A DNA stretch of 45,829 nt from Terrabacter aerolatus (GTDB lineage: Bacteria; Actinomycetota; Actinomycetes; Actinomycetales; Dermatophilaceae). Made by a program: the position numbers and the translations under genes. The notes under the pieces are model-generated. The model was not told the origin of the DNA and made no database searches. It saw only the letters and a list, made by a program, of their open reading frames with translations. Positions within the stretch are counted from its first letter, which is position 1. Every line of letters starts with the position of its first letter. Below, in pieces: positions 22 to 45,611 of this stretch. The DNA lies in NCBI RefSeq assembly GCF_007991735.1, contig NZ_BJYX01000027.1, positions 1-45,829 on the forward strand, written 5' to 3'.

Positions 22-47
22 CCCGACGGCATACGCGAGCAGGAAGG

Positions 48-1070
48 TCAGCGCGCCAGAAGCGCCAGCACGGGGTTGTGCTCGGGCGGGACGACCTCTC
101 GCGGCGGGCCGGGAGGCGTGCCGTCACCGAAGGGCGTGCCCCCGAGCGCCTCGCGTCCGTGCGGCGTCGCCCAGTTCTCGAGGGACGGGCCGAGCGGCAC
201 GACGCCGGTTGGGTTCACGTCGGTGTGCACGACGTAGTAGTGCCGCTTGATGTGGGTGAAGTCGACGGTGTCGCCGAAGCCGGGCGTCTGGAAGAGGTCG
301 CGCGCGTAGCCCCAGAGTGCAGGCATCTCGATGAGCTTGCTGCGGTTGCACTTGAAGTGCCCGTGGTAGACGGGGTCGAAGCGCACGAGCGTCGTGAACA
401 GGCGCACGTCGGCCTCGGTGATGTGGTCGCCGACGAGGTAGCGCCGCGTCGACAGGCGCTCCTCGAGCAGGTCGAGGTTCTCCCAGAGCCGACGGTAGGC
501 CTTGTCGTAGGCGTCCTGCGTCCCGGCGAACCCGCACCGGTAGACGCCGTTGTTGACGTAGCGGTAGATCGGTTCGCTGACCGACTCGATCTCGTCGGCG
601 AGGGCGTCGGGGTAGAGGTCGGGGGCGCCCTCGCGGTGGAAGTCGCGCCACTGCGTCTCGAGGTCGACGGTGATCTGCTTGAAGTCGTTGGTCACGACGG
701 CACCCGTCGGCACGTCGACGATCGCGGGAACCGTGATGCCACGGGGGTATTCGGGGTCGCGCTTGAAGTAGGCGTCCTGGATGCGCGGGATCTTGAGGAC
801 CGGGTCGAGGCCGCCCGGGTCGAGGTCGAAGGTCCAGCTGCGCTTGTCGTGCGTCGGGCCGCAGATCCCCATCGACAGCGCGTCCTCGAGCCCGAGCAGC
901 CGGCGCACGATGATGGCGCGGTTGGCCCACGGGCAGGCGCGCGCCACGACGAGGCGGTACCGGTCGGCCTCGACCGGGAAGCCGTCGCGGCCGTCGGCGG
1001 TGATGCGGGTGGTGATGTAGTTCGTGTCGCGCTTGAAGCTCTTCTCGACGTACGTTCCCGGCTCGCTCAT
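48..1070 (-). CDS. Glutathione S-transferase family protein, glutathionyl-hydroquinone reductase (Xi class) type
   Basis: A 340-residue soluble protein with the Xi-class layout: an N-terminal thioredoxin-fold domain and an all-helical C-terminal domain. The catalytic cysteine sits in the family's CPWA motif (ACPWANRA, Cys46), where ordinary GSTs use Ser or Tyr. The family reduces glutathionyl-hydroquinones; in actinobacteria, which use mycothiol rather than glutathione, a mycothiol-linked substrate is more likely, but that is inference. The tail after about residue 300 is rich in Pro and Gly. The ATG at 1070 has no Shine-Dalgarno but lies six bases after a TAGGGT -10 box, suggesting a leaderless mRNA. 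It is divergent from the GNAT-like gene, with 122 bp between starts. Confidence 0.9.
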   Translation of the reverse strand: MSEPGTYVEKSFKRDTNYITTRITADGRDGFPVEADRYRLVVARACPWANRAIIVRRLLGLEDALSMGICGPTHDKRSWTFDLDPGGLDPVLKIPRIQDAYFKRDPEYPRGITVPAIVDVPTGAVVTNDFKQITVDLETQWRDFHREGAPDLYPDALADEIESVSEPIYRYVNNGVYRCGFAGTQDAYDKAYRRLWENLDLLEERLSTRRYLVGDHITEADVRLFTTLVRFDPVYHGHFKCNRSKLIEMPALWGYARDLFQTPGFGDTVDFTHIKRHYYVVHTDVNPTGVVPLGPSLENWATPHGREALGGTPFGDGTPPGPPREVVPPEHNPVLALLAR

Positions 1071-1076
1071 GCGCCC

Positions 1077-1082
1077 ACCCTA
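1077..1082 (-). promoter_or_regulatory. -10 box of a leaderless GST promoter
   Basis: On the minus strand TAGGGT (1082 to 1077) is followed by six bases and then the ATG at 1070. TANNNT-N6-start is the usual arrangement of leaderless actinobacterial transcripts. A CGGCATAC octamer (1095-1088, minus orientation) sits just upstream, between the presumed -35 and -10 regions. Confidence 0.5.
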
Positions 1083-1192
1083 ATTCGGTATGCCGCGTGG
1101 ATCCTCGAGCGCCCTGCCGGTCGGTGCCGGGTCATGGTGTTCTGGGTCGGATCCGGGTGAGAATGGGCCCATGAGGCCTGCGAGCAGACGCG

Positions 1193-1873
1193 ATGCGTGA
1201 GCTCCGGCCCCTGACACCCGACCGGGTGGGCGACCTCCTCGGCAGCTGCGCGCCGTGCACCTTCTGGCAGACGGTGCCGCGCAACGGCCACAGCGACCCG
1301 CGCGAGCCCGTCGAGCAGCTCATCGACTGGGTCGAGGCGGTGACGGCCGACTGGGGGCCCCCGGGACGGGTCGCCTACGTGGACGGGTCGCCGGCAGGGC
1401 ACGTCATCGTGGCTCCGGCGCGTCACGTCCCGCGCCTGGCCGCGTTCCCGACGACGCCGGGCGACCCCTCGACGCTCATGCTCGTCACGGCGGTGATCGC
1501 GGCGGGGCAGCCCGACCGGGGGCTGCGCAAGGCGCTGGTGCAGGCGGCCGCCAAGGACGCCCTCCACCACCGGGTGCGCTCGCTCGAGGCGGTGGCGGCG
1601 CGCCCTCTGGCGGTCTCGCGCCACGCCTGCGTGCTCGACGCGGCGTTCCTCGAGAAGGTCGGCTTCCGGCTGGAACGTGACCACCCGGCATACCCGAGGC
1701 TCCGGATGGACCTGCGAACGGTGGTGACGTTGCGCGACGAGGCAGCGGCGGCCCTGGGGCGGGCCCTGGCCTGGGTGCCGGGGGCCACGTCGGTCCCGGA
1801 GACCCATCCGAACGGGCACAGCCACGCGCACGTCGCCGACCGGACCGAGCACCGGAGTCCCGACCGGTCCTGA
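1193..1873 (+). CDS. GNAT-like acetyltransferase family protein (Rv3916c-position homologue)
   Basis: A 226-residue protein without signal peptide or membrane segment. The middle (about residues 60-165) has the alternating strand/helix pattern of GNAT N-acetyltransferases, including a likely acetyl-CoA loop region near GQPDRGLRKALVQ and the late GF motif (EKVGFRLE) near residues 162-169. Substrate unknown. It faces cwlM tail to tail, as Rv3916c faces cwlM (Rv3915) in M. tuberculosis, so the position is probably an ancestral feature of the oriC-proximal region. The last 40 residues are His/Pro-rich and look disordered. Only 50 bp separate it from cwlM; a weak inverted repeat (1860-1866 with 1898-1904) might terminate both. 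The GNAT assignment rests on fold pattern and context, not on a strong motif. Confidence 0.7.
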   Translation: MRELRPLTPDRVGDLLGSCAPCTFWQTVPRNGHSDPREPVEQLIDWVEAVTADWGPPGRVAYVDGSPAGHVIVAPARHVPRLAAFPTTPGDPSTLMLVTAVIAAGQPDRGLRKALVQAAAKDALHHRVRSLEAVAARPLAVSRHACVLDAAFLEKVGFRLERDHPAYPRLRMDLRTVVTLRDEAAAALGRALAWVPGATSVPETHPNGHSHAHVADRTEHRSPDRS

Positions 1874-1923
1874 GGCCTGGATGGTCCTGGGCCGGGACGG
1901 TCGGATGACAGGAGGGGCTCGGG

Positions 1924-3141
1924 TCAGCTCACCGTGCGGTCGGCGGACACGTGCTGCCCGCGCATCGTCTCGAGGTGGCGACGGAGGTCGTCGAGCCGGA
2001 GCACGCCGGTGCGGGAGGTGTCCGCCTCGCCGAGGTAGACGCGCTGGAGCGCCACGACGACGGCCTCGGCGACGTGGTCGAGGATCTGGGCGTTGGCGAG
2101 GGAGGCCGCGTCGCCCTCGTGGCTGAGGTAGCCGAAGTCGAGGCGCACCGCCGGCATGCGCGTGCGGCGCAGCAACGGCCACGTGCGGGCGTGGGAGCGG
2201 CAGTCCGTCAGGCCCGTGCGCGCCACGACCTCGCGCAGCAGCAGGTCGGCGAAGCTCTCGCCGATGACCGACCAGTCGCTGTGGGCCGCGCTGTCGGGGT
2301 GACCGTAGAAGTACGTCGAGGCTCCGTGGGCCGAGCCGGAGGCCGAGTGGTCGGTGTGCAGGGAGAGCACGAGGTCGGCGTCGCACGAGTTCGCGAAGGC
2401 CGCGCGCTCCTCGTCGGTGCCGCCGTCGGTGGCCTCGGTGCGGGTGAAGACGACGCTGACGCCGTGCGCCGAGAGCCGCCCCTCGATGCGGCGCGCGAGG
2501 TCGAGGGCGAGCCGGGCCTCGACGAGACCTCGGTGACCGTGGGCGCCGGCATCCCCGCCGCCGTGACCGGGGTCGAGGACGATGGTGCGTCCGCTCAGGC
2601 TGTAGCCGCCGCGGCGGATGTGCTCGCGCTCGCGCAGGGCGTTGGCCGAGCCACCGCTGACGGAGCGTCGCAGGCCCGCGAAGGCGCGCATCGTCTCGGG
2701 GCCGACGGTGCCGTCGGGAACGAGCCCCACGGCGGCCTGGAAGGCGCGGAGCGCCGAGTCGGTGCTGGGGCCGTGCAGACCGTCGACCTTGCCGGGGGTG
2801 AAGCCGAGCTCGGCGAGCCGGGACTGCAGGGCCACGACGTCGTCGCCCTCGATGAAGTGCTCGGGCACGTAGCGCAGCACCCGGTCACCGAGGGCCCAGC
2901 GGGCCCCGTCGAGGACGGCATACGTGGAGCGTCCGACGACGCCGTCGACGATGAGCCCGCGACGCTGCTGGAAGGACTTGACGGCCTGCTCGACCCGCTC
3001 GTCGTAGACGGCCTCGCCGAAGCGGTCGCTGTGGCCGGAGCCGCCGGGCAGGTCACCGGAGAGGGCCAGACGCTCGCACACGGCGGCCACGGCGGGACCG
3101 GAGTCACCGCGCCGGAGCACGACGGACTGCTGGGGTGTCAT
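1924..3141 (-). CDS. cwlM: CwlM-like N-acetylmuramoyl-L-alanine amidase homologue
   Basis: A 405-residue protein with two peptidoglycan-binding (PG_binding_1) repeats at about residues 7-80 and 98-158 and an Amidase_3 domain at about 186-370. Zinc ligands are recognisable: His193 in DPGHGG, Glu208 and His262 in SLHTDH. The family's catalytic Glu in the late E-x-GFLS motif is Asp335 here (RLDFGYLS). There is no signal peptide. This matches mycobacterial CwlM, which is cytoplasmic and activates MurA when phosphorylated by PknB instead of cutting the wall; a regulatory role here is inference. An AAAGGAG ribosome site precedes the ATG at 3141. It lies downstream of trxA, past a hairpin at 3238-3266. 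Confidence 0.88.
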   Translation of the reverse strand: MTPQQSVVLRRGDSGPAVAAVCERLALSGDLPGGSGHSDRFGEAVYDERVEQAVKSFQQRRGLIVDGVVGRSTYAVLDGARWALGDRVLRYVPEHFIEGDDVVALQSRLAELGFTPGKVDGLHGPSTDSALRAFQAAVGLVPDGTVGPETMRAFAGLRRSVSGGSANALREREHIRRGGYSLSGRTIVLDPGHGGGDAGAHGHRGLVEARLALDLARRIEGRLSAHGVSVVFTRTEATDGGTDEERAAFANSCDADLVLSLHTDHSASGSAHGASTYFYGHPDSAAHSDWSVIGESFADLLLREVVARTGLTDCRSHARTWPLLRRTRMPAVRLDFGYLSHEGDAASLANAQILDHVAEAVVVALQRVYLGEADTSRTGVLRLDDLRRHLETMRGQHVSADRTVS

Positions 3142-3266: not shown

Positions 3267-3294
3267 AACGTGCGCTTCGACCGTGCGCTGACGG

Positions 3295-4904: not shown

Positions 4905-5801
4905 TCAGGGGACGGGGGTGGCTCCCTGGAGCAGGCCGGGGGCGCTGGTCGTGCAGCTGCGCTCGACGGCCCAGGCGGTGCTGGCACCGGCACGGGTCAC
5001 GACGACGACGACCGCGGGGCGTCCCTCGAACGTCGCCACGTCGGCCGAGACGTGGTCGGGGGCCGGCCTCGTCCCGTCGACGGCGCCGATCTCCTCGAGG
5101 CACGCCTCGAGGCCGATGGGCGTGGCGATGGGACCGATTCCCGGTGACTCGGCGGCGAGGCCGCGGATCGGCTGGCCGGGGTGGTCGAGCAGGGTCCGGG
5201 CCTGCGCGGCGAACGAACCGCGGGCGTATGCCGTCGTGCTGAGCTGGATGTGGAGCCCCTCCGACGTCGGTGGCGGGCTCGCGGGCGTGGACGCGCCGGC
5301 AGCCGAGCTGTAGCGGTCGCCGACGACCGCGGCCCCGTTGGGGCGCTTCGTCAGGTGCAGGGCCGAGGCCCCCACGGCGACGACGGCTGCCGCCGCGGCG
5401 ACCGCGGCGACGAGGTAGATCGGCCTGGGCCGCTCGGCGCGCGACGGCAGGGTGAGCACCGCTCCGCCGCCGGGGTGGCCGTCCGTCCCGGTGTCGGCGC
5501 CCGAGGCGAGCAGCGGACCGGGGTCGACGCGCAGCCGCGCGGCGTCGAGGAGCGCCCGCTCGATGCGCTCGGACACCGCGTCGGGCATCGGGCCGGGTGC
5601 CGGCGCGTGGGCGAGCAGGGCGCGGACCTCGGCCTCGATGCTCGGGTCGAGGTGGGGCTCGGGACCGTCGTCCTCGATCTCGTGCCCGAGCGCACCGTCG
5701 ACGAACCGGCCGGGGTCCTGCGGGAGGGGCAGGACCGGGTGCGCGCGGCGGGGGACGCCGTCGTCCGGGTCGTGCTCAGGGGTGTTCGCGGACTCGTCCA
5801 C
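4905..5801 (-). CDS. Membrane-anchored anti-sigma factor (anti-SigM type)
   Basis: A 298-residue protein with a charged cytoplasmic part (about 1-125), one membrane helix (about 128-148) and an extracytoplasmic domain of about 150 residues. The cytoplasmic part carries a helix (about 53-90) that could bind the sigma factor; no zinc-type HXXXCXXC motif is present. It directly follows sigM, as RsmA (Rv3912) does in M. tuberculosis, which is the main reason for the call. The GTG at 5801 follows AAGGA at suitable spacing; longer frames up to 5915 lack a ribosome site. A candidate ECF-type promoter lies about 75 bp upstream, so SigM may drive its own inhibitor. Sequence similarity among such anti-sigmas is low. 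Confidence 0.75.
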
Positions 5802-5873
5802 CGGTGTGGTCCTTCGGGCAGAGTGCAGTGGTCGTACACGGGCAGGCAGGGGTATGCCGGTCGCCGAGGATTC

Positions 5874-6545: not shown

Positions 6546-8540
6546 TCAGCGCACCGTCACTTCACTGATCTGCGCGCGGTAGTGGTTGGCGGCCTCGGCG
6601 GGGGCCGCCTTGGTGACGAGGACGATGATCTTGCTCGCAGGCTTGAGGGTGGCCGGGGCGGTGATGACGACGGTGCCCGACGCGTTCTGCTTCGAGCCGA
6701 TGGTCTGGGCGCCGGTGAGGGAGTCGGTCGAGGCGGAGTCGGTGGCGTAGACGGTGACGTCCTGGGGTGCGCCGAGGACGAGCTGGACCTGCTTGACCGT
6801 GGTGGGGGCGCTGAGGTCGAGGAGCACGCCGACGCCGTCCTTCTTGCCGTTGAAGGTGGGCGTGCCGTACCAGCGCGAGCGCCACTCGGTGCCGGGGTTG
6901 CCGTCGTAGGTGAGCTTGACGGTCTGGTCCGACTCGGTGCCGTCCTCGGGGTCGAAGCCGGTGCCGGCGACGACGGACACGGCTGCGGCCGGGGGCGCCT
7001 GGGTGGTGCTGGGCGGGGCCGTCGTCGTGGCGCTGGGCGCTCCGCTCGAGGTGGGGGTGCGGGTCTTGGTCACCGTCACCGCGGGCGCGGCCACGCCGTC
7101 GTGCTTGCCGATCTTCATGACGTTGCTGATGCCGATGACGAGGGCCACGACGACGAGGGCCCCGACGATGGCGAGGGCGATGCGTGACTGGGTGCCGCTC
7201 GGCGCCTCGGGTGCTTCTCGGCCGAACACCGGGACGGGCGGCTCGAGCCGCGTGGCGGGGGCCTCGTCGAGGGCGTCGACGAGGCCGATGCGCTCGCCGG
7301 CGAAGTCGTCGTCGTAGTCGTCGTCGCCCTCGCGGAACGCGCGACGCTCGGCGGCCCGTGCGGCTGCCTTGTCGGCCGCGGCGCGGGCGAACGAGCCGAC
7401 GCGGTCTCCGATGGCACCGGCGACGCCCGCGGCCGCGGTGGCGGCAGCACTGGCCGCCGCGATCCCGCTCTGGAGTCGCTCCGAGGAGGCCGCGGACGAT
7501 GCCGACGCAGCGGAGGTCGACGAGCCCACCGACCGGTCGGACCGGTCGTCGGGGAGCCGGTCGAAGAAGAGCGTGTCGGTGCCGTCACCGGCCGCACCAC
7601 CAGCCACACCGGCGGCCCCGGCGGCCCCGGCGGCGGCCGCACCCGCTCCGGCGCCCAGGGAGGGCATGACCCGGGTGGTCTCGGCGGACCCGCGGTCGTC
7701 GCGCCCGCGCAGCCGCATGCCCGTGGCGCCGTCGGACGTCGCCATCTCGGAGGGCCACGGTGCGATCTGGAGCGCGAGGTCACCCGGGGAGACCGGGCCC
7801 CGGCGCCCGCTGCCGAGCGTCATGCGGCAGATGAGGTCGAGGTCGTTGGGCACGCCCACGGCGATCTCGGAGGGAGCAGCCACCCCACCGACGATGGTGG
7901 GGGCGGCCTCGAGGCCGACGGAGGAGCCGGCGGGGATGAGGCCGTTGTCGACGGCCACCATGGGCCAGCGGCCGGTCAGGGCGGCATACGCGATCTTGAC
8001 GAGGCCGACGGCGTCGGCACGGGAGGCCCGCTCGTCGGAGAGCTGGTCGGCGTCGGTGAGGGCCGCCTCGGTGGCGAGCCCGCGCACCTTGACGGCGCCG
8101 TCGGGCATGCGCAGGACGGCGCTCGGGGTCAGCGCGAGGTGGTGCAGGCCCCGGTGGGTGGCCTTGTCGAGGGCCGTGGCGGCCTCGCCGGTGATCCGGC
8201 GGACCTCGTCGGGCGACAGGCCACCGCCCTGCAGCAGGTGCGAGAGGGGAGCGGCGCCGGTGAGCGGCTCCTCGACGATGAAGCCGACGCCCTGGTCGGT
8301 GCCGACGTCGAGGACCCGCACGAGACGGGGGTCCTCGATGCCGGCGGCGCGGCGCGCTGCGTCGAGGGCTGCGGCGGCGACGGACGCTCCCGCGGGGAAG
8401 CAGACGAGCACGACCTCGCGCTCGAGGGTGTGGTCGTTGGCGCGCCACCGCTCGTGGTGTGCGCCCTCGGAGGTACGAAGCGTGACGGCATAGCGGCCGC
8501 CCAGGACCGATCCGGGTCCGACTCCCTGCACGTGCGTCAC
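6546..8540 (-). CDS. Membrane pseudokinase with discoidin-like extracytoplasmic domain (MviN C-terminal-type), no flippase domain
   Basis: A 664-residue protein. Residues about 10-270 follow a Ser/Thr kinase fold but lack the glycine loop, the beta-3 Lys, HRD (HLALTP at that place) and DFG (RGLATE), so it should not transfer phosphate. A low-complexity Ala/Gly linker follows, then one membrane helix (about 452-474), a Thr/Pro stalk and a C-terminal region (about 520-664, with DGNPGTEWRS and GVGVLLDLSA) resembling a galactose-binding/discoidin fold. In mycobacterial MviN (Rv3910) the same pseudokinase and ectodomain are fused to the 14-helix MurJ lipid II flippase and recruit FhaA when phosphorylated. 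Here the flippase part is neither fused nor adjacent: the DUF6049 gene ends only 45 bp upstream. Confidence 0.85.
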   Translation of the reverse strand: MTHVQGVGPGSVLGGRYAVTLRTSEGAHHERWRANDHTLEREVVLVCFPAGASVAAAALDAARRAAGIEDPRLVRVLDVGTDQGVGFIVEEPLTGAAPLSHLLQGGGLSPDEVRRITGEAATALDKATHRGLHHLALTPSAVLRMPDGAVKVRGLATEAALTDADQLSDERASRADAVGLVKIAYAALTGRWPMVAVDNGLIPAGSSVGLEAAPTIVGGVAAPSEIAVGVPNDLDLICRMTLGSGRRGPVSPGDLALQIAPWPSEMATSDGATGMRLRGRDDRGSAETTRVMPSLGAGAGAAAAGAAGAAGVAGGAAGDGTDTLFFDRLPDDRSDRSVGSSTSAASASSAASSERLQSGIAAASAAATAAAGVAGAIGDRVGSFARAAADKAAARAAERRAFREGDDDYDDDFAGERIGLVDALDEAPATRLEPPVPVFGREAPEAPSGTQSRIALAIVGALVVVALVIGISNVMKIGKHDGVAAPAVTVTKTRTPTSSGAPSATTTAPPSTTQAPPAAAVSVVAGTGFDPEDGTESDQTVKLTYDGNPGTEWRSRWYGTPTFNGKKDGVGVLLDLSAPTTVKQVQLVLGAPQDVTVYATDSASTDSLTGAQTIGSKQNASGTVVITAPATLKPASKIIVLVTKAAPAEAANHYRAQISEVTVR

Positions 8541-8585: not shown

Positions 8586-10958
8586 CTAGGCGGGTCGGCC
8601 GTGATCCCCGTCGTCCGCATCGCCGAGAGACTCGTGTGCCGCGGTGACCGCCTCGATGTCGGCGATCTCGTCGACGCGCGAGGTGCCCTTGACGACGGCA
8701 CGCACCACGCCGGCCAGCAGGACGAGCCCCACGAGGACGCCGCCGACCCAGTAGATGGTGGCGTCGAGCGGGTTCGCGGAGACGGGGATCGAGGCGGGAG
8801 AGCCGATGAGGGTGCCGTCGGCCGTGGTCAGGTAGGCGCGGATCTCGGCCCGGCCCGCGGCGACGGCCGCGACCTCGACGGGCACGTTGGTGCGCGACGT
8901 CGGGCCGATCGTCACGGGGGCGGGCTGCGCGACGATCCGGATGCGTGGGTTGTCGGGCACGAGACGCAGCCGGATGTCCTGGACGGTGTAGTCGAGGCCG
9001 TTCTCGACGGTGATCCGCAGCGTGCCGTTCTCGGCGAGCAGGTTGATGGTGCTCGTGCGGGGCACGACGCGGATCGCGCTCGTCGCGGCCCGGATGTCGC
9101 TGGCGACGGAGTTGGACAGGGTGACCCACGAGGCCGGCTGGTAGCGCCACCGGGCGCTGCCGAGCTCGTCGAGGACCTCGCGGTAGGTGCGCTCGAACGC
9201 GGCCCCGTCGCGCAGCACCGACGAGACGCTGAGCAGGGTGTCGCGCTGCTCGGCCATCTGGGTCAGGCGGCGAGCGGTGAGGACGGGCGGTGGCGCGGCC
9301 GAGTCGACCGTGGTCGTCGGCTTCGTCGGGGGCAGGGCCTTGTCGGTGACGTGGTCGGACAGCAGCGACGCCGCGTCGACCGTCTCGAGCCACGGCGCCG
9401 ATGCCGTGGCGGACAGGAACGTGGCGAGCGCGGCCGGGTCCGGGTCGTAGTTGCGCGGCGCCGTGACGAGGACCGAGCGTGGCGTCCCGGCCCGCTCACC
9501 GAGGAGCACGAGCGTCTCGGCGAGGTAGCGCTGCACCGACAGGACGGGGCTCGGGTCGCTGCGCCGGGGGAGGAGGGCGGAGAGCCGGGGGTCGTAGGCG
9601 AGCAGCCGGGTCCCGCCGGCCGCGACCCTGCGCGCACTGGGGGTGTATGCCGTCGGCTTCGTCACCGCGGCGGCGTTGACGACGATCCCGGCCGGCCTCT
9701 TGACCGAGGTACCCGCGAGCATCCTCCGCAGGCCCTGCTCCCGGCCGCTCGGCAGCAGTCCGTCGACGGGCCAGACGATGTCGGCGCGGGCGGGCTGTCC
9801 GAGGCGGGTCGTCAGGGCGGTGGCCCGGCTGACGAGGTCGCGCACGAGGGAGTTGGCGGGGTCGATGCCGACCGTGGCGGCCAGGTCGGCGTCCGCGTAG
9901 GGCAGGGCCCAGACGCTGCGACCGCGGAGCTGGGAGGCGAGGCCGTCCCCGAGCTGGGCGATCGTGGGGGAGGACGTGGGCGACGCGCCCGAAGGGGTCG
10001 CCGGGGTCGCCGGGGTCGTGGTCGGTGGGGCGGCCGGCGGCGTGGTGGTCGCGCTCCCCGAGGAGGGGCCGGGGCTGCCGGTGGTGGCGCTCGGGGTGGG
10101 GGTCGCCCCGCCCGAGGAGGCGTCGACTCCCGCGTCGGGTCCGAGCACCGCCGGGTCGACGGCGAGGTCGACCTGGCTCGCGCGGGTCCCCTGGACGATC
10201 CGCTCCACCCGTGACCCGGGACCGATCGCGCGCTGCCACGCGCTCCGGCGCGCGGCGTCGTCGCGGGAGAAGAGCTCGACGTCCGGGTCCAGCGTCACGG
10301 GCAGCACGGTGGCCACCTGGATGGGGACGTACTCCTTGCGGCCGTTCCAGGCGACGAAGGTCCGGGTCCGCCCCGTGGGCTCGGTCGCGCCCTGCTGGAC
10401 GACCTCGACCGAGATCGGCACGGCCGCGAAGGCGGCCTCGCTGCGCAGCTCGCGCCACGGCACGGTCGCCGTGAAGGGCCGGCTCTGCCCGGCCGCCACG
10501 GTCGGCAGCGGTGTCACGTCGACGGTGCGCCCGGGTCCCTGGGTGCGACCGGAGGCCCAGTCGTCCAGGGCGGTGCGCTGGTCCACGCGCACCTCGCCGC
10601 GCACGACCCGCAGCTGCGGGCTCGACAGCGGACCCGTGAGCGGCGCCGTGACCGTGCCGGTGATGGTGACGTCCTTGCCGGGGCTGACGACCGCGGGCGT
10701 CAGGGTGCCGAGGACGATGACGGCGACGTCCTTGGCCGCCGTGACCGACGGCAGGTGCGTGGGCGAGCCCGCGGAGTCGACGGGGGTGACGGCATACGAC
10801 GTCGGAAGGGCCGGTGCGGGCGCCGCGGCGGCGGCCAGCGTGCCCCCGACCGAGAGCCCCACGGCTGCGAGCGTCGACGCGGTGGCGGTCAGGCGGCGTC
10901 GGAGGCGGGTCGCGCGACGCCCGCTCGAGTCCGGACGCCGCGACCCTCGGAGGATCAC
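8586..10958 (-). CDS. DUF6049 family large membrane-anchored protein (Rv3909-like)
   Basis: A 790-residue protein close in length to M. tuberculosis Rv3909. It has an Arg-rich N-terminus and a signal-like hydrophobic segment (about 20-45), a long extracytoplasmic part with a Thr/Pro/Ser-rich insertion (about 270-330), Ig-like strands near residue 640-720 and one C-terminal membrane helix (about 735-757) followed by an acidic tail. Function is unknown; constant linkage to murJ, sigM and mutT4 suggests envelope work. The GTG at 10958 overlaps the Nudix stop codon as GTGA, which fixes the start; the open frame reaching 11291 is only the shadow of the Nudix gene. Confidence 0.85.
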   Translation of the reverse strand: MILRGSRRPDSSGRRATRLRRRLTATASTLAAVGLSVGGTLAAAAAPAPALPTSYAVTPVDSAGSPTHLPSVTAAKDVAVIVLGTLTPAVVSPGKDVTITGTVTAPLTGPLSSPQLRVVRGEVRVDQRTALDDWASGRTQGPGRTVDVTPLPTVAAGQSRPFTATVPWRELRSEAAFAAVPISVEVVQQGATEPTGRTRTFVAWNGRKEYVPIQVATVLPVTLDPDVELFSRDDAARRSAWQRAIGPGSRVERIVQGTRASQVDLAVDPAVLGPDAGVDASSGGATPTPSATTGSPGPSSGSATTTPPAAPPTTTPATPATPSGASPTSSPTIAQLGDGLASQLRGRSVWALPYADADLAATVGIDPANSLVRDLVSRATALTTRLGQPARADIVWPVDGLLPSGREQGLRRMLAGTSVKRPAGIVVNAAAVTKPTAYTPSARRVAAGGTRLLAYDPRLSALLPRRSDPSPVLSVQRYLAETLVLLGERAGTPRSVLVTAPRNYDPDPAALATFLSATASAPWLETVDAASLLSDHVTDKALPPTKPTTTVDSAAPPPVLTARRLTQMAEQRDTLLSVSSVLRDGAAFERTYREVLDELGSARWRYQPASWVTLSNSVASDIRAATSAIRVVPRTSTINLLAENGTLRITVENGLDYTVQDIRLRLVPDNPRIRIVAQPAPVTIGPTSRTNVPVEVAAVAAGRAEIRAYLTTADGTLIGSPASIPVSANPLDATIYWVGGVLVGLVLLAGVVRAVVKGTSRVDEIADIEAVTAAHESLGDADDGDHGRPA

Positions 10959-19139: not shown

Positions 19140-19370
19140 GGCGGGGCGAGCCGACGGGTCGCCTTCTCGACGGTCAGGTCGCGCGGCCCCTCGACGGGCG
19201 CGGAGTCGGGCAGGGCCTGAGTATGCCGGCGGGTGGACACCGCGCGACCGGGACGGCAGCCTCGTCCCCGACACCACCAAACCACCACAAGCTTCCGTAA
19301 CGCCGCACGGCTGGACATCGTTGAGCGTGTCAGCCCGAGGGCGTGTCGACAGGGATTAGGGGACCTGATC

Positions 19371-26489: not shown

Positions 26490-26555
26490 CCCTCCCCACC
26501 CGGCCACACGGCATACCCCCACTTCGATGAAACACCCGACAGGAGAACGACACCC

Positions 26556-31730: not shown

Positions 31731-34700
31731 AGCTGAAGTTCGTCCTCCGGTCCGGCGACCGCGAGACCGACCTCGTCGCCACGACGGACTCCGCCACGAC
31801 CGTGGGTGACCTCGCGGGCTTCCTCGCGGCGGCGGACCCGAACCGCTCGACGGTGCTCGGCGCCGACGCCACGATGACGCTCGCGCTCGTCGACCAGGAC
31901 CTGCGCGGCCTCGACCCGCGCGCGACGGTCGCCGAGAGCGGCCTCCAGTCCGGCATGCGCGTGTCGGTGACCCGGGCCGGTGAGGGTTTCGTGGACCGCG
32001 GACGCCCGGCGGCGGTCGTCTACATCCGCTCCGGACCCGACGCGGGCCAGGAGTTCCCGCTCGCCCGCGGGACGGCATACGTCGGCCGCGGCCGCGGCTG
32101 CGAGGTCCAGCTCTCCGACGAGTCGGTGTCGCGCAAGCACGCCAAGCTCGTCGTCCAGGAGGTCGTCGAGGTCGTCGACCTCGGCTCGGCCAACGGCATC
32201 ACCGCCGGCGGCCAGCAGGTGACCCGGGCGCACCTCAAGAGCGGCGACGTCGTCCGCGTCGGCGACACCGAGCTCGAGGTGCACCTGCAGGGCGACGGCG
32301 TCGTCAGCCGGCCCGGGAGTGGTGTCCTGTCGGGTGACGCCGGCACCGTCGCCTTCTCGCGCTCGCCCCGCGTGGCGCCCCTCTTCGCCGGCCAGGAGTG
32401 GCAGGTGCCCGACCTCCCCGAGCGCGGCAAGCTCAGTCCGATGCCGCTCGTGGCCATGGTCGTGCCGCTGCTCATGGGCGCGGTCCTCTTCGCGATCACG
32501 AAGAACGCCTTCTCGATCGTCTTCATGCTGATGATGCCGGTGATGATGGCCGGCACGTACTACGAGGCCCGCCGCCAGCAGAAGAAGGAGTACGCCCAGG
32601 CGATGGCCGACTTCCGCGAGGACCTCGAGCTGCTCTCCCAGCGCATCCGCAGGTCGCTCGAGGTCGAGGGCCGCACCCGCCGCGGTGAGCACCCGAGCGG
32701 CGTCGACTGCCTCACCGCCGTGCGCGACCGAAGCGCCCTGCTGTGGACCCGCCGTCGCGACGGCAACGGCTTCGGCGAGCTGCGCCTCGGCCTCGGCACG
32801 CGCCCCTCCCGGTCCGCGATCAAGATGCCCGCCGTCGGCCGCTCCAAGGCCGAGGCGTGGCTCGCGGTCTCGGAGGAGCTCCAGGGTCTCGAGGTCGTCC
32901 ACGACGTGCCGGTCGTCGCGACACCCCTGGCCGACGGCGCCGTCGGCATCGCCGGGCAGCGCGCCTCGGCCCTCGGCGCCGCCCGGTCGTTCGTGCTGCA
33001 GAGCGCCGCGCTGCACTCGCCCGCGGAGCTCGCCGTGTGCTCCTTCGCCTCCGGCAGCTCGGCGCGCGACTGGGACTTCCTCAAGTGGCTCCCGCACACG
33101 ACCTCGCCCCACAGCCCCGTCGCCGTCGACCACCTCGCTGCCAGCGCGCCCGGGTGCTCGGCGCTCGCCGACGCCCTCGAGGACATCGTCGAGGCCAAGA
33201 GCTCCGGCAGCGGCGGCCCGGAGTCGGAGCAGGCCACCGCCGGGCGCCCCACCGTCCTCGTCCTGGTCGAGAGCGACGCCCCCATCGACCGCAGCCGCCT
33301 CGTCGCGATCGCCGAGCGTGGCCACCGGCACGGCATCGTCGTGCTCTGGGTCGCCGAGACCCAGCAGCTGCTCCCGGCCGCGTGCCAGACCTTCCTCGTC
33401 GTCTCCGACGACCAGAGCTCGCTCGCCGGCTACGTCCACGCGGGCGAGGAGGTGCAGCCCGTCGCCGTCGACCGCGTCACCTACGACGAGGCGATGGCCG
33501 GGGCCCGCCAGCTCGCGCCCGTCGTCGACGCCGGCGTGCCCGTCGACGACGCGAGCGACCTGCCGCGGGCCGTCTCGCTGCTCACCCTGGCCGGCACCGA
33601 CCTCGCGAGCTCCGAGGAGGCGGTCATCGAGAAGTGGGGCGAGTCGCGCTCCATCCTCACCGGGCCGTACGCGCCGGCGGTCCTGCCGCGCAAGCCCGGC
33701 AACCTGCGCGCCATCGTCGGCCAGTCGAGCCAGGGCACCTTCTCGGTCGACATCCGCAGCGACGGCCCCCACGCCCTCGTCGGCGGCACGACCGGCGCCG
33801 GCAAGTCCGAGCTGCTCCAGGCGTGGATCCTCGGCATGGCGGCGGCGCACTCGCCGCAGCGGGTCACCTTCCTGCTCGTCGACTACAAGGGTGGCTCGGC
33901 CTTCCGCGACTGCGTCAAGCTGCCGCACACCGTCGGCCTCGTCACCGACCTGTCGCCGCACCTCGTGCGTCGCGCGCTCGCCTCGCTCGCCGCCGAGCTG
34001 CACTACCGCGAGCACCTGCTCGCCCGGCACAAGGCCAAGGACCTGCTCGAGCTCGAGCGCCGCGGCGAGGTCGACGCACCGCCGTCGCTCATCCTCGTCG
34101 TCGACGAGTTCGCCGCGCTCGTCCAGGAGGTGCCCGAGTTCGTCGACGGCGTCGTCAACGTCGCCCAGCGCGGGCGCTCGCTCGGCCTGCACCTCATCCT
34201 CGCGACGCAGCGCCCGGCCGGCGTCATCAAGGACAACCTCCGCGCCAACACCAACCTGCGCATGGCGCTGCGCATGGCCGACGAGAACGACTCCGACGAC
34301 GTCCTCGGCTCCAAGGAGGCGGCCTTCTTCGACCCCGCCCTCCCCGGCCGTGCCGTCTCCAAGACCGGCCCGGGTCGGCTCGTCCCCTTCCAGACGGGGT
34401 ATGCCGGTGGGTGGACCTCCGACGTCCCTCCGCCCCCCGACATGAAGGTCGAGACGCTGACCTTCGGGCGCGGCACCGAGTGGGAGCCGCCGCGCGTCGA
34501 GGGTGCCGACGACTCGGCCGACCTCGGCCCCACCGACATCCAGCGCCTCGTCTCGACGCTCGGTCGCGCGGCGCAGGTCGCCGAGCTGCCCAAGCCACGC
34601 AAGCCGTGGCTGCCCGACATGCGGCCCGTCTACGACCTCGCGACGCTGCCGACCCAGCGGCGCGACGACGAGCTCGTCTTCGGCATCGCCGACGACCCCG

Positions 34701-36136: not shown

Positions 36137-36212
36137 GGTCGGTGACTCAGCCGAAAAGCGTTGGCGCACAAGGCAGTCGGACGCTGCACACGGCATACGG
36201 CGGGGGCGACCG

Positions 36213-37270: not shown

Positions 37271-39160
37271 GTGAGCCTGTTCCCCCTCGTGGCCGTCGTC
37301 GCCGACCGACCCGGTCTGACCGACGCCCTGGCCCGGCGCGGCTGCGTGCCCACCCCGGCCGAGACGGCCGACGTCCTCGTCGTCGACGCCGCATCGGCCG
37401 ACGCCGCAGCCGTGCGTGCGGCCCTGACCGGTGGTCGTGGCGTCGTCGTCCTCGGCGCGCCCGCCGGCGAGCTGGGCGGCGAGCTGGCCGGGGTCGTCGC
37501 CGGCGTGCAGCGGGGCGCGGACACCGCCTCCGGCAGCCTGCGGCCCGCCGTCCGCGTCGAGCGCGACACGGAGATCGGCGAGGACCTCCTCGCGCGCGTC
37601 GACCTCGGCGCGCTGCGCACCTGTGCCTCGCTCGACCTGCAGCACCCTGCTCGTCCGGTGCTCGCGGCCGGTGGGCTCACGGTGGCGGCGACCACCGGCT
37701 CGGCCGTGGTGCTGGCCGTCGAGCCCGACGCGGCGGCGCCCGCCGGCGAGCAGTCGTTCGCCGAGCTCGTGCACAACGCCGTGTGCTCCGTCGCCCCCCG
37801 CGGCGGTCGCCGCCTCGACGTCGTCGCCGCCCACCCGCTCGTCGCGTCCGACGCCTGGCTCGGGCTCAAGGCGGCCGTCACGGACCTGCGTGAGCTCCAG
37901 GCCGCCGACGGGTCCGTCCCCGAGGCCACCGACCACGCGGACGCGGCCAGGCACGTCGCTCGTCTCGTCGCCGGCATCCAGGCCATGGCGCCGGAGCTGC
38001 CCCACGACGCCGACTACCTCGAGGCCCTCGTCAAGGACTTCGGCCGCTGGGCCGAGAGTGGCTTCGGCGTGCCGGACTTCTACGACTCCCTCGTCGCCTT
38101 CGCGCCGGCGCAGCACCGCGTCGACGGGCAGATGCACCTCGTCGTCTTCCCGATGTACACCCAGAACGGCAACCCGAACCGCCAGGTCGAGGCCGTGCTG
38201 CTCGAGGTCATCTGGCCCGACTTCGTCGCCGAGCTCGAGGGCGGGGACTACTCCAACAAGCTCTTCCTGCCGATCCGCTTCCTCGACTTCACGGCCGGCT
38301 ACGACACGAACTCCGCCGTGCTCTTCCCCGAGACCGTCGCCATGCGCGAGGTCCCGGCCTTCACGTGGGGCGGCATCTTCGCCGACCGCGAGGCCGCGCG
38401 CTTCCGCCGCGTCGTGTCCGAGGCTGCGGCGGTGACGCGCCTGTCCCTGCCGCCGGACGCGGCCCGCCTCGTCGCCGACCAGGAGCTCGCCGAGCGCGCC
38501 TTCGTCATGTGGGACCTCATCCACGACCGCACCCACATGCACGGTGACCTGCCGTTCGACCCCTTCATGATCAAGCAGCGCATGCCGTACTTCCTCTACT
38601 CGCTGGAGGAGCTGCGCTGCGACCTCACGGCCTTCCGTGAGGCCGTCGCGCTCGAGGCCGAGGGCCACCCGTACGCCCGGTCGGTGCAGTATGCCGTCCT
38701 CTTCGACCGCATCTTCCGCTTCGCCATCACCGGTGACCGCACTCGCAACTACGACGGCCTCGGTGGCCAGCTGCTCTTCGCCTGGCTCCACCAGAAGGGC
38801 GTCCTGCACTGGACCGACAACCGCCTCACCATCGAGTGGGAGCGGGTCGCCGAGCCGGTGCTCGAGCTCGGTCGCGCGGTCGAGGACCTCTACTGGCGCT
38901 CGATCGACCGGCCCAAGACGGCGCACTGGCTCGCGGCCTACCACCTCGTCGCCTCCGTGCTGACGCCGCACCCGCTCTCGGCGTGGGCCCGGCACCGCGA
39001 CGGCGACCTCGCGGCGCTGCCCCTCGACGGCCCGCCCAAGGGGCTGACCGACGCCGTGCTGCCCGACGAGTTCCCGCTCTCGATGTTCTACGAAGCCCTG
39101 TCCAAGAAGATGAAGGACGTCATCGAGTCGACGTCCGGCATCACCGGGGCCAGCGCGTGA
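37271..39160 (+). CDS. DUF6421 family protein
   Basis: A 629-residue soluble protein of a family found in actinobacteria, function unknown. No signal peptide, membrane helix or nucleotide-binding motif is evident. The C-terminal two thirds are the conserved part, with His-rich DLIHDRTHMHGDLPFDPFM (about 415-434), a setting that could bind metal, and NYDGLGGQLLFAWLHQKGVLHW (about 493-514). The N-terminal 150 residues are more variable and Ala/Val-rich. The GTG at 37271 is selected because GGAGG stands eight bases before it; the frame extending back to 37187 covers the likely promoter. It overlaps the SDR gene (GTGA), so the two probably act together. Confidence 0.8.
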   Translation: MSLFPLVAVVADRPGLTDALARRGCVPTPAETADVLVVDAASADAAAVRAALTGGRGVVVLGAPAGELGGELAGVVAGVQRGADTASGSLRPAVRVERDTEIGEDLLARVDLGALRTCASLDLQHPARPVLAAGGLTVAATTGSAVVLAVEPDAAAPAGEQSFAELVHNAVCSVAPRGGRRLDVVAAHPLVASDAWLGLKAAVTDLRELQAADGSVPEATDHADAARHVARLVAGIQAMAPELPHDADYLEALVKDFGRWAESGFGVPDFYDSLVAFAPAQHRVDGQMHLVVFPMYTQNGNPNRQVEAVLLEVIWPDFVAELEGGDYSNKLFLPIRFLDFTAGYDTNSAVLFPETVAMREVPAFTWGGIFADREAARFRRVVSEAAAVTRLSLPPDAARLVADQELAERAFVMWDLIHDRTHMHGDLPFDPFMIKQRMPYFLYSLEELRCDLTAFREAVALEAEGHPYARSVQYAVLFDRIFRFAITGDRTRNYDGLGGQLLFAWLHQKGVLHWTDNRLTIEWERVAEPVLELGRAVEDLYWRSIDRPKTAHWLAAYHLVASVLTPHPLSAWARHRDGDLAALPLDGPPKGLTDAVLPDEFPLSMFYEALSKKMKDVIESTSGITGASA

Positions 39161-39864
39161 CCGTGACGGACGCCCAACCGGCCGGGAGCGACCCGCAGGT
39201 CGTTGTCGTCACCGGCGCCACCGGGGCCACAGGGCGCGCGACCTGCGCGGCCCTGCTCGCACGCGGGGAGCACGTCGTCGCCGTCGGCCGCGACGCCGCC
39301 TCGCTCGAGTCGCTCCGGGTCGAGCTCGACGCCCCGCACTGGGCCTTGCTCGACACGCGGGTCTGCGACCTGCTCGACGGGGACGCTGTCCAGTCCCTGG
39401 CCGCGGAGGTCGTGTCCGAGCACGGGCACGTCGACGCCCTCTTCCACCTCGTCGGCGGCTGGCGGGGCGGCACGTCCTTCACCGAGTCGACCGACGACGA
39501 CTGGCGCTGGCTCTCGGGCAACCTCGTCGACACGTTGCGCCACACGACCCTCGCCTTGCACGACCACCTCCTCGCCACGGGGCGAGGGCGGGTGGCCATC
39601 GTCAGCGCAGCCGCAGCGCAGGCCCCCACGGCCGGCAACGCGGCATACGCCAGCGCCAAGGCGGCCGCCGAGACGTGGCTCGGCGCCCTGGCCGACTCGT
39701 TCGGCTCCGACGACGCGACCCCCGGCTCGGCGGCGGTCGTCGGTGTGGTGAAGTGGATCGGGACGGGTCGTACGGCGACCGCCCCGGCCCGTGTCGCCGA
39801 GTGGCTCACCGGCCTGCTCGACGAGGACGCCGCCGCTCTCAACGGCGCCCGGGTCGAGCTGTAG
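39157..39864 (+). CDS. Short-chain dehydrogenase/reductase (SDR) family protein
   Basis: A 235-residue classical SDR. The NAD(P)-binding loop TGATGATG lies near residues 18-25, the catalytic Ser150 in VSAAAA, and the Tyr164-x3-Lys168 pair in YASAK. Substrate unknown. The GTG at 39157 overlaps the DUF6421 stop; a second GTG at 39163 is also possible. Together with DUF6421 upstream and the threonine aldolase downstream it forms a three-gene unit that I believe recurs in related actinobacteria, suggesting a common small-molecule pathway. Confidence 0.9.
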   Translation: MTVTDAQPAGSDPQVVVVTGATGATGRATCAALLARGEHVVAVGRDAASLESLRVELDAPHWALLDTRVCDLLDGDAVQSLAAEVVSEHGHVDALFHLVGGWRGGTSFTESTDDDWRWLSGNLVDTLRHTTLALHDHLLATGRGRVAIVSAAAAQAPTAGNAAYASAKAAAETWLGALADSFGSDDATPGSAAVVGVVKWIGTGRTATAPARVAEWLTGLLDEDAAALNGARVEL

Positions 39865-41187: not shown

Positions 41188-41207
41188 GCGTCCGGGCCGG
41201 CAGGCCC

Positions 41208-42017: not shown

Positions 42018-42722
42018 GTGAGCGCCCTGCTCGCCACCATCACGAACCAGGTCCTGCATGCGCCGGTGTGGCTCGTGCTCCTCGTGGTCGGCGGTGTCGT
42101 CTTCGTCGAGGACGCCCTCTTCGTCGGGTTCATCGTGCCCGGCGAGACGGTCGCGATCCTCGGTGGAGTGGCGGCCTCCCTCGGTCACGTCCCCCTTGCT
42201 GCCGTCCTCATCGTCGTCGTGCTCGCCGCGATCATCGGCGACACCGTCGGTTTCGAGGTCGGTCGCCACCTCGGTGGCCGCGTCGTGCAGATGAAGGTCT
42301 TCGACCGCCACCGCGACCGCATCGGCCAGGCGCAGGACTTCCTGGGTCGCCGTGGCGGGGCCGCCGTCTTCCTCGCCCGCTGGACGGCGTTCCTGCGAGC
42401 CGTCATGCCGGCGCTCGCCGGGATGTCGAAGATGCACTACCCGACCTTCCTCATCTGGAACGCAGCCGGGGGCATCGCCTGGGGCAGTGTCGTCGTCACC
42501 GCCGGCTACCTCGCCGGCCAGTCCTACGCCCGCGTCGAGACGTGGCTCGGTCGCGGAGCCGCCGTCGTCGTCGGGATCATCGTCGTCGTCGCGCTCGTCG
42601 TGTGGCAGGTCCGCCGCCACCGCAGCGAAGGTGGGTCGGGTGACGCGTCCGCCGAGCGGTCCGGGCACTCCGAGGCGTCCGAGGGTGCCGACAACCCGTC
42701 GCGTATGCCGTCTGCCGGCTGA
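42018..42722 (+). CDS. DedA family membrane protein
   Basis: A 234-residue integral membrane protein with about five hydrophobic segments. The DedA/SNARE-associated (VTT) motifs are present: the early FVEDALFVGFIVPGE re-entrant region (about 30-44) and the Arg-rich RWTAFLRAVMPALAGMSKM segment (about 122-140). DedA proteins are implicated in lipid transport, including flipping of undecaprenyl phosphate or phospholipids. The tail after about 205 is hydrophilic. The GTG at 42018 is preferred since GAGGAG precedes it by six bases; a frame opening at 41943 would start in the promoter region. Confidence 0.92.
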   Translation: MSALLATITNQVLHAPVWLVLLVVGGVVFVEDALFVGFIVPGETVAILGGVAASLGHVPLAAVLIVVVLAAIIGDTVGFEVGRHLGGRVVQMKVFDRHRDRIGQAQDFLGRRGGAAVFLARWTAFLRAVMPALAGMSKMHYPTFLIWNAAGGIAWGSVVVTAGYLAGQSYARVETWLGRGAAVVVGIIVVVALVVWQVRRHRSEGGSGDASAERSGHSEASEGADNPSRMPSAG

Positions 42723-43731: not shown

Positions 43732-43761
43732 CTCCGCCCTGAAGCAGCTCCACCTCGGAGC

Positions 43762-43798
43762 TTCGGGCCCCAGGAGCCGCTCGGCCCTGGGGCCCGAA
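43762..43798. terminator. First hairpin between convergent genes
   Basis: TTCGGGCCCCAGG (43762-43774) pairs perfectly with CCTGGGGCCCGAA (43786-43798) around an 11-base loop, 30 nt after the stop of the DUF4190 gene. Upstream, an imperfect 15-bp repeat (CCTGAAGYAGCTCCRC) spans the stop codon. Confidence 0.7.
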
Positions 43799-43804
43799 AG
43801 ACGC

Positions 43805-43838
43805 GTGTGGCCCCCTTCCTGCTGGAAGGGGGCCACAC
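43805..43838. terminator. Second, 15-pair hairpin between convergent genes
   Basis: GTGTGGCCCCCTTCC (43805-43819) and GGAAGGGGGCCACAC (43824-43838) are perfect arms around TGCT. The two tandem hairpins can terminate transcription from both the DUF4190 gene and ino1. The right arm ends inside the CGGCATAC octamer at 43838-43845. Confidence 0.85.
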
Positions 43839-43862
43839 GGCATACACGATCCGACCGAGAGG

Positions 43863-44954
43863 TCAGCGCTCCTCGGTGCCCGCGATGAAGGCCTCGAGCT
43901 TCGCGCGACCGAGGTCGTCCGGACGCTGCTCCGGCGGGGACTTCATGAGGTAGGACGAGGCGGACAGCAGGGCGCCGCCGATGCCGCGGTCCTTGGCGAT
44001 CTTCGCCGCGCGGATGGCGTCGATGATGATGCCGGCCGAGTTGGGGGAGTCCCAGACCTCGAGCTTGTACTCGAGGTTCAGTGGCACGTCACCGAAGGCG
44101 CGACCCTCGAGGCGGACGTAGGCCCACTTGCGGTCGTCGAGCCACGCGACGTAGTCGGACGGGCCGATGTGGACGTTCTTGCTGTCGACGAGACCCGAGA
44201 GCGAGCCGGTCAGGTTGGACGTCACGGCCTGGGTCTTGGAGACCTTCTTGGACTCGAGACGCTCGCGCTCGAGCATGTTCTTGAAGTCCATGTTGCCGCC
44301 GACGTTGAGCTGGTACGTCCGGTCGAGGGCGACACCGCGGTCCTCGAAGAGCTTGGCCATGACGCGGTGCGTGATGGTGGCGCCGACCTGGCTCTTGATG
44401 TCGTCACCGATGATCGGCACGCCGGCGGCCTCGAACTTCGCGGCCCACTCGGGGTCGGAGGCGATGAAGACCGGGAGGGCGTTGACGAAGGCGACCTTCG
44501 CGTCGATGGCGCACTGGGCGTAGAACTTGTCGGCCTGCTCGGAGCCCACAGGGAGGTAGGAGACGAGGACGTCGACCTTGCGGTCCTTGAGGACCTGGAC
44601 GACGTCGACCGGCTCGGCGCCCGACTCGTCGATCGTCTGGCGGTAGTACTTGCCGAGACCGTCGAGCGTGTGGCCGCGCTGGACCTCGACGCCCGTGGTG
44701 GGGACGTCGGCGATCTTGATGGTGTTGTTCTCCGAGGCGTTGATGGCCTCGGACAGGTCCTTGCCGACCTTCTTGTCGTCGACGTCGAACGCGGCGACGA
44801 ACTCCACGTCACCGACGTGGTAGTCGCCGAACTCGACGTGCATGAGGCCGGGGACGCCGGCGGAGGCGTCAGCGTCCTTGTAGTACTCGACGCCCTGCAC
44901 GAGCGAGCTCGCGCAGTTGCCGACGCCGACGATGGCGACGCGTACGGATCCCAT
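43863..44954 (-). CDS. ino1: Inositol-3-phosphate synthase
   Basis: A 363-residue enzyme close in length to M. tuberculosis Ino1 (Rv0046c). It converts glucose 6-phosphate to inositol 3-phosphate with enzyme-bound NAD, the first step towards phosphatidylinositol and mycothiol. The N-terminal NAD-binding loop VGVGNCASS (about 9-17), the [11 protein letters not shown] segment, the NVGGNMDF motif and the Lys-rich active-site region ([23 protein letters not shown]) are present. An AAGGAGTGATCC ribosome site precedes the ATG at 44954. It lies three bases after the PadR gene, the same pairing as Rv0047c-Rv0046c. Confidence 0.97.
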
Positions 44955-44957
44955 GGA

Positions 44958-45611
44958 TCACTCCTTGTTGTTGGTGGTCGTGCTCTGGGGGGTGGTGATG
45001 TCTGTGGTGTCGTATGCCGCCGGGCCCGGGTCGAGGGCCGCGCGGCGTTCGGCGACGATGAGCTCCTCGAGCCAGCGGACCTCGCGCTCGGCGCGCTCCT
45101 CGCCGTGCTGCTGAAGCGCCAGGGTGTAGCTGTCCATGCGCTCGCGCCGGGCCTGGGAGGCGTCGCGGATGTTGGCGAGGCGCTCCTCGAGGCGGGAGCG
45201 CCGGCCTTCGAGGATGCGCAGCCGGACCTGGGCCTCGGTGCGGGAGAAGAAGGCGAAGCGGACGTCGAAGTCGTCGTCGTCCCAGGCGTCGGGACCGCTG
45301 GCGGCGACGAGGTCCTGGAAGTGCTCCTTGCCGTCGGCGGTCAGCTCGTAGGTGATCCGGGGGCGCTTGCTGCTGCCCGTCGCCGGCTCGGTGGTCTCGT
45401 GGATCCAGCCCGAGTCGACGAGGTGCCTGAGGGCCGGGTAGAGCGAGCCGTAGCTGAGCGCCCGGAAGATGCCGAGGGCCGTGGTGAGCCGCTTGCGCAG
45501 CTCGTAGCCGTGCAGCGGACCGTCGTGGAGCAGACCGAGCACCGCGAACTCGAGCAGCGCGGCGCGGCGGCTCTGGGGGCGGTCGGACGAGGGCACGGGT
45601 TCACCGTACAC
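44958..45611 (-). CDS. PadR family transcriptional regulator
   Basis: A 217-residue regulator. The N-terminal winged helix (about 18-95; LLEFAVLGLLHDGPLHGYELRKRL, then SYGSLYPALRHLVDSGWI) is the PadR domain; the C-terminal part (about 115-195) is a long, charged helix region of the Vir_act_alpha_C type that forms the dimer. It is co-transcribed with ino1, so inositol synthesis is a likely target together with its own gene. The start may be the GTG at 45611 or the GTG at 45596; an operator-like inverted repeat begins four bases upstream of the first. Confidence 0.92.
   Translation of the reverse strand: MYGEPVPSSDRPQSRRAALLEFAVLGLLHDGPLHGYELRKRLTTALGIFRALSYGSLYPALRHLVDSGWIHETTEPATGSSKRPRITYELTADGKEHFQDLVAASGPDAWDDDDFDVRFAFFSRTEAQVRLRILEGRRSRLEERLANIRDASQARRERMDSYTLALQQHGEERAEREVRWLEELIVAERRAALDPGPAAYDTTDITTPQSTTTNNKE

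Follow-up and report, generated by a model that had tools for sequence, protein, structure and literature searches.

A dense octamer with clade-specific dialects in Dermatophilaceae is a probable DNA uptake sequence associated with a Tad-type pilus cluster

Results

An octamer dense in one contig and throughout the Terrabacter genome

The stretch of Terrabacter aerolatus DNA analyzed here (45,829 nucleotides, contig NZ_BJYX01000027.1, positions 1 to 45,829; hereafter the window) carries at short intervals, in genes and between them, a non-palindromic octamer, CGGCATAC, which we read as a probable DNA uptake sequence. We found 23 exact copies in the window, 11 on the plus strand and 12 on the minus strand, which reproduces exactly the count and span of the original prediction made from the letters of this stretch. 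Dinucleotide shuffles of the window contained a mean of 0.34 copies and at most 3, and an order-3 Markov model gave an expectation of 1.17, close to the one to two copies estimated earlier; under the same model, CGGCATAC and ACGGCATA were the most enriched octamers of the window. As had also been noted, every GGCATAC heptamer in the window (23/23) is preceded by a C. The excess holds for the genome as a whole (G000; 4,420,518 bases in 62 contigs), which contains 2,163 copies, 1,091 forward and 1,072 reverse, compared with 195 (105 and 90) for the reversed control word. A short, non-palindromic word in such excess across a genome, at roughly one copy per 1-2 kb, is what characterizes uptake sequences. 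Nine Terrabacter genomes including G000 carry from 1,423 copies (in a genome that is 74% complete) to 2,358, and the highest load that we encountered was 4,724 copies in 4.2 Mb (G108).

Long form, orientation and selection at the DNA level

Placement and codon usage were analyzed in 440,429 bases of G000 holding 239 copies of CGGCATAC, with genes predicted by a simple codon-usage script whose gene ends are approximate. In this sample 72 sites fall within 45.1 kb of intergenic DNA and 166 within 395 kb of coding sequence, with one on an edge, which corresponds to 1.60 and 0.42 copies per kb, respectively, a ratio of 3.8; loci of Knoellia and Pedococcus give 2.6. The intergenic enrichment that had been proposed from the window, where seven of the 23 sites lie between genes, is thus borne out in the larger sample. 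The unit also exceeds eight bases: the 72 intergenic copies yield the majority consensus GGCCACACGGCATACG, with a flank preference that is one-sided, reaches about six bases out and is strongest for an A at position -1. The intergenic copies of the window lie at 27..34 (+), 1088..1095 (-), 5852..5859 (-), 19221..19228 (-), 26509..26516 (+), 36191..36198 (+) and 43838..43845 (+), and at 26509..26516 and 43838..43845 the five preceding bases are CCACA, matching the long consensus.

The two orientations are used about equally, with forward and reverse counts of 100:91 in 335.6 kb and 11:14 in 59 kb as well as the 11:12 of the window, and in one 320 kb stretch divided into 16 bins the strand difference bore no relation to GC skew, in keeping with the strand independence claimed at the outset. 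Spacing in G000 is slightly more even than random (coefficient of variation 0.85). Neighboring copies less than 60 nucleotides apart form 12 pairs in the G000 sample, nine of them in the order GTATGCCG..CGGCATAC, and when 758 kb of other word-rich genomes are added, 19 of 25 close pairs have this order. Seven of the nine such pairs in G000 are intergenic with a gene end within 201 nucleotides, and these pairs could form hairpins with folding energies of -20 to -51 kcal/mol.

Inside genes, the copies of the window are read in three registers. An Ala-Tyr register (GCA TAC) is used at 1686..1693 (+), 5226..5233 (-), 9645..9652 (-), 16742..16749 (+), 32073..32080 (+), 39641..39648 (+) and 45012..45019 (-); a Tyr-Ala register (TAT GCC) at 2916..2923 (+), 7982..7989 (+), 10790..10797 (+), 13649..13656 (-), 22264..22271 (-), 34399..34406 (-) and 38689..38696 (-); and a Met-Pro register (ATG CCG) at 27635..27642 (-) and 42703..42710 (-). 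The original prediction had seen that seven of the 11 TAT codons in predicted genes of the window fall within GTATGCCG, which is exact, and the codon bias is also evident in the G000 sample. Where the context is (xxG)TAy(GCC)(Gxx), tyrosine is encoded by TAT in 99 of 115 cases, as opposed to 56 of 2,136 elsewhere, and alanine in the context (xCG)GCn(TAC) is encoded by GCA in 40 of 80 cases, as opposed to 761 of 17,547 elsewhere. In 160 kb samples of Janibacter and Phycicoccus, which lack CGGCATAC, the same contexts contain TAT in 0/7 and 0/5 and GCA in 0/10 and 0/17 cases. The word is also conserved between relatives: across alignments of a 59 kb stretch to six further Terrabacter genomes, at 82-86% identity in the aligned parts, the word was exact in 54 of 65 aligned copies, as opposed to 60 of 176 for 18 control words, in comparisons that share one query and are not independent of each other. 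CGGCATAC is kept by selection on DNA and not on protein, as originally proposed, and the lack of conservation that would have spoken against this was not seen.

Exact copies occur at 543 per Mb in the G000 sample and at 4.8 per Mb in 420 kb of word-free relatives, and the 24 possible single-mismatch words together at 645 and 705 per Mb, respectively. Since these near-miss words are at background level, few decaying copies seem to be present. An apparent near-miss depletion under a Markov model was set aside in favor of this comparison with motif-free genomes because the word inflates its own model. As a separate observation, the palindromes TCGGCCGA (72 copies, 163.6 expected) and GAGCGCTC (32 copies, 98.5 expected) are under-represented in the 440 kb sample, perhaps through restriction.

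Clade-specific dialects within the family

Our survey covered 186 genomes of the family to which Terrabacter was assigned (f1), which we take to be Dermatophilaceae in the sense of GTDB and whose members NCBI divides among Intrasporangiaceae, Ornithinimicrobiaceae, Dermacoccaceae and others. CGGCATAC is dense, at 120 or more copies per Mb, in 107 of the 186 genomes, and 72 of the remaining 79 have fewer than 60 copies per Mb. In a sample of 396 genomes from the order, 35 of them in the family, none of the 361 genomes outside it (18 families) had more than 180 copies. Loads may differ sharply within a genus: G016 has 37 copies and its four congeners have 1,251-1,660, and G092 has 19 and its congeners have 3,681 and 1,062.

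We then sampled CGGCATAC-poor genomes for other enriched words and counted the two clear ones genome-wide. The first, CGGCATCC, reaches 3,816 and 3,838 copies in two Humibacillus genomes (G025 and G026), 4,480 in G042, 3,619 in G043 and 3,949 in G178; G006, G162 and G167 have 1,210-1,336 copies, and the remaining genomes at most 1,040, apart from two congeners of G042 that carry two words at once. These Ornithinibacter-like genomes, G044 and G045, hold 2,195 and 2,099 copies of CGGCATCC together with 1,217 and 1,189 copies of CGGCATAC, as if they stood between two dialects. The second word, CGAAGGGGG, is present in 797-1,860 copies in 16/16 Janibacter (g27) and 1,317-1,939 copies in 3/3 Marihabitans (g36) genomes, and in at most 80 copies in the other 167 genomes of the family. 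Both CGGCATCC and CGAAGGGGG are strand-balanced. Of the 186 genomes, 131 are dense in at least one of these three words. On a tree of 62 TadA proteins, well-supported branches force both of the two changes that CGGCATCC requires, eight of the ten required by CGGCATAC are forced, and CGAAGGGGG requires a single change with support 91/91. The dense word is a family trait with clade-specific dialects.

Several other words enriched in CGGCATAC-poor genera were not accepted as dialects, namely ACGCCGTACG and GGCGTCGTAC in G092 (the latter with 26 copies where 1.9 are expected), AACGGCAA in G162, CGGCGTAC in genus g35 and the weak CCGCATCG in genus g32. In 160 kb of g35 loci (G097 and G098), CGGCGTAC, which is one letter away from CGGCATAC and could represent a further dialect, occurs 134 times with 27.6 expected. 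In 120 kb of g32 loci (G090 and G091), there is a strong excess of ten-base G or C runs (42 ten-mers, 1.0 expected), and in Nostocoides (L149 / L222) CTGGTACAC is found 11 times in about 20 kb, perhaps as a local repeat.

Association with a Tad/Flp pilus cluster

G000 carries three tad loci, T1, T2 and T3. The T3 cluster has the order tadA-tadB-tadC-flp-TadE-TadF-TadG-like, often lies near prfB and was found by script with all seven genes in 32 of 43 loci; in a Pfam scan that left out tadC, the T3 tadA, tadB, TadE and TadG-like proteins were recognized, and Flp and TadF were not. T3 tadA is present in 166 of the 186 family genomes. A recognized word occurs in 125 of these 166 and in six of the 20 genomes that lack T3 (Fisher 9e-5), and among genomes that are at least 90% complete in 110 of 149 and four of 14, respectively (Fisher 0.001), both values ignoring kinship; for CGGCATAC alone the figures are 102 of 166 and five of 20 (Fisher p 0.003). 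Thirteen of the 20 T3-less genomes were searched again for the tadA Pfam family, and 12 had other copies or distant relatives; in G077 the family was not found at E<=1e-10. Only G132 among these 13 contained a fragment of T3, and the T2SSE locus read in each of G009, G030 and G046 was not T3-like.

Other candidate partners were set aside. PilM (PF11104), taken as a mark of classical type IV pili, was found in 7 of 186 genomes and not in G000, and T1 (contig C29 of G000) has no equivalent at the tad loci read in the word-bearing genomes G017 and G178. Beside the shortened T3 of G178, L131:3597-4658 encodes a predicted protein built from tandemly repeated units of about 13 residues (WQRQLFQKPLVPD). 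In addition, contigs L209 and L230, which are titled Streptomyces UBA8490 and Spirochaetaceae CAN_BIN15, encode T3 TadA proteins of 80% and 76% identity and probably derive from mislabeled or mixed assemblies.

Transformation of Micrococcus luteus requires both of its tad clusters, with tadB only partly needed, as described in the available part of PMC4322843. We compared the M. luteus pilins, using peptide starts given in the accessible portion of PMC6370729, with T1 and T2 of G000 and with T3 of four genomes. Among the pilins compared, M. luteus TadE and TadF matched the T3 TadE and TadF best, with z values of 18.4 and 18.6 in G042 and of 7.9 and 8.7 in G000 over about 36 residues each. M. 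luteus Flp matched T2 (4.7) and T1 (4.6) about equally, TadE2 had no clear partner, and any correspondence of the second cluster to tad-2 is doubtful. Two cysteines of T3 TadF, 112 and 117, are invariant, and its structural model (mean predicted local distance difference test score 89) has one long and one shorter helix together with three strands.

Inserts that split T3 genes

Breaks in tadA were sought in 24 genomes, mostly picked for a partial or weak match to T3 tadA. In 15 of them the two halves lie on one contig and strand, 3.8-79 kb apart (G003, G006, G008, G012, G015, G083, G088, G107, G108, G131, G147, G155, G168, G170 and G172). As for the other nine, the pieces are on several contigs in G053 and G066, a single piece was found in G072, G082, G129 and G132, G119 is doubtful, and the gene is whole in G095 and G143. 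The breaks fall near residues 76-85, 100, 137, 165, 198-206, 223-236 and 287-304 of 406, and the other tadA relatives in the same output are unbroken, except for a weak one in G095 that is in two pieces 81 bases apart.

The contents of two inserts were read. In strain MAHUQ-38 (L255:10001-19954, G006), tadA is split by DNA encoding a large serine recombinase and a major head protein, and in Root85 (L200:12084-21215, G004) tadC is truncated by DNA with a gene for a small terminase subunit. Together, these phage-like inserts, one of which is cut by the end of the locus, contain one copy of CGGCATAC in 17.0 kb where 8.3 are expected. The split tadA genes and the truncated tadC give the impression that mobile elements have repeatedly targeted a single pilus cluster. 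Prophages have been described inside the competence genes comYC, comK, comFA and comM (available part of PMC4774983), and the present inserts, two of which carry phage genes, likewise split a gene of a putative uptake pilus; they differ in that the target is a tad ATPase gene (once tadC) and is hit at several positions.

Discussion

On the features that a genome sequence can reveal, CGGCATAC appears to work like a DNA uptake sequence, and we put the probability that it and its long form GGCCACACGGCATACG belong to an uptake-sequence system with dialects and a Tad-type pilus at roughly 0.7. What suggests this are the dialects, the inverted close pairs found mostly at gene ends, the absence of strand skew, the association with T3 and the apparent scarcity of the word in the two phage-like inserts, observations that favor the likeness to uptake sequences suggested in the original prediction. 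We infer that T3 encodes a competence pilus in these bacteria, that one of its minor pilins recognizes the tag and that DNA carrying the tag is favored. In such a system CGGCATAC would mark self DNA. A Tad/Flp surface pilus built from T3 would bind DNA with the tag more readily than DNA without it and would pull it inward to ComEA and ComEC. Recombination would then put tagged alleles in the place of untagged ones, so that tags would accumulate and be retained at synonymous positions and between genes, where their cost is low, and a shift in receptor preference could allow a new dialect to take over.

A number of observations weigh against this reading. Ornithinimicrobium loci show no intergenic enrichment (ratio 0.93), and single-mismatch words are not above background in G000, in contrast to Kingella oralis, where such words add 21% to the uptake-sequence count (available part of PMC3630211). 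The link between word and T3 is uncorrected for kinship and is imperfect in both directions: 41 genomes have T3 and no recognized word, including all 12 Phycicoccus (g47), Austwickia (g5) and g53, and G081, G101, G109, G126, G130 and G132 have a word, with no T3 found. ComEC is nearly universal, being present in 180 of 186 genomes, and was dropped as a separator of rich and poor genomes. Regarding the receptor, a fold search with the T3 TadF model returned no solved structure at E<=0.001, and a comparison of CGGCATAC and CGGCATCC genomes across the seven cluster proteins revealed no convincing residue that follows the dialect; single dialect-following columns in TadB, Flp and TadE, with none in the other four proteins, were taken as chance. 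Finally, Terrabacter with an interrupted T3 (G003, G004, G006 and G008) retain 2,024-2,358 copies of CGGCATAC, which implies either that the breaks are recent or that upkeep of the word today is independent of an intact T3. We lowered our estimate slightly because the word is kept where T3 is broken and because the M. luteus match concerns short peptides.

Four other explanations were considered. It is conceivable, if unlikely, that the word is the target of a methyltransferase or of another chromosomal DNA-binding protein, such as a HIP1-like, nucleoid or segregation factor, which would suit its high density, genome-wide spread and slightly even spacing. HIP1 of cyanobacteria, whose function is debated, provides a precedent for a very dense octamer in one clade. 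HIP1, however, is palindromic and CGGCATAC is not, and the flank of about six bases on one side, the whole-word switches between close relatives, the link to a pilus cluster and the apparent scarcity in the two phage-like inserts all argue against such a protein. A Chi-like role, in which the word would steer recombination following double-strand breaks, seems very improbable to us: the word is a frequent, non-palindromic octamer limited to one family, as a Chi site might be, but known Chi sites favor one strand, and in the part of the genome counted here there is neither strand bias nor a relation to GC skew; nor would an association with a pilus cluster be expected of Chi.

A repair or mutation bias that creates the word without any use to the cell is, in our view, slightly less credible again. 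Near-miss words that do not rise above background could look as if they had been converted to the exact form, but they are not clearly depleted relative to motif-free relatives, and an eight-base target, a one-sided flank, three dialects and an intergenic density 3.8 times that in genes are hard to explain by bias. Least probable of all is that the copies are remains of a self-copying mobile repeat or hairpin element; some copies do form hairpins at gene ends, but little sequence is shared beyond the long consensus, only 12 close pairs occur among the 239 copies, and 166 of the 239 lie inside genes, with synonymous codon effects.

The uptake-sequence reading can be set beside the known systems. 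Uptake sequences have been tied to Neisseriaceae and Pasteurellaceae (PMC12616744 and PMC3630211, each in the part available), and our searches of an open-access library revealed no such word in actinobacteria, which agrees with the statement in the original prediction that none was known. The DNA uptake sequences of Neisseriaceae, as treated in the accessible part of PMC3630211, are likewise short, non-palindromic words present in thousands of copies on both strands, with clade dialects and inverted pairs; the differences are the phylum, the tad/Flp clusters found here with PilM missing from G000, and the receptor, which in Neisseria is ComP. The uptake signal sequences of Pasteurellaceae (available part of PMC12616744) share the dense word, the dialects and a receptor sought among minor pilins, and differ in word, phylum and pilus type. 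The Flp/Tad-dependent transformation of M. luteus shares tadA-tadB-tadC, TadE/TadF minor pilins, ComEA and ComEC, and the available part of that paper (PMC4322843) makes no use of the term 'uptake sequence'.

A resemblance at the level of the letters may be due to chance. The Neisseria uptake 12-mer contains ATGCCGT, and the complementary strand of the word described here, CGTATGCCGTGTGG, shares ATGCCGT-TG with it. Ten bases of the Neisseria 12-mer are given as GCCGTCTGAA in the accessible portion of PMC6370729.

The actinobacterial cells considered here have one membrane. With somewhat less assurance than for the core reading, we think it rather likely that the word represents a third uptake-sequence system of separate evolutionary origin, without precedent in actinobacteria or in one-membrane cells, one that would be read by a Tad/Flp pilus, with at least three dialects acting as barriers between genera and with phages repeatedly silencing the ATPase gene. 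Another example, from a distant phylum and with a different pilus, would make the causes of uptake sequences comparable. If the reading is true, transformation would become predictable in many actinobacteria of soil, sludge and marine habitats, since DNA carrying the right word should enter better. The genera with different words and the two-word Ornithinibacter-like genomes would provide a natural test of whether words separate gene pools, and the split ATPase genes point to a family-wide conflict between mobile elements and transformation.

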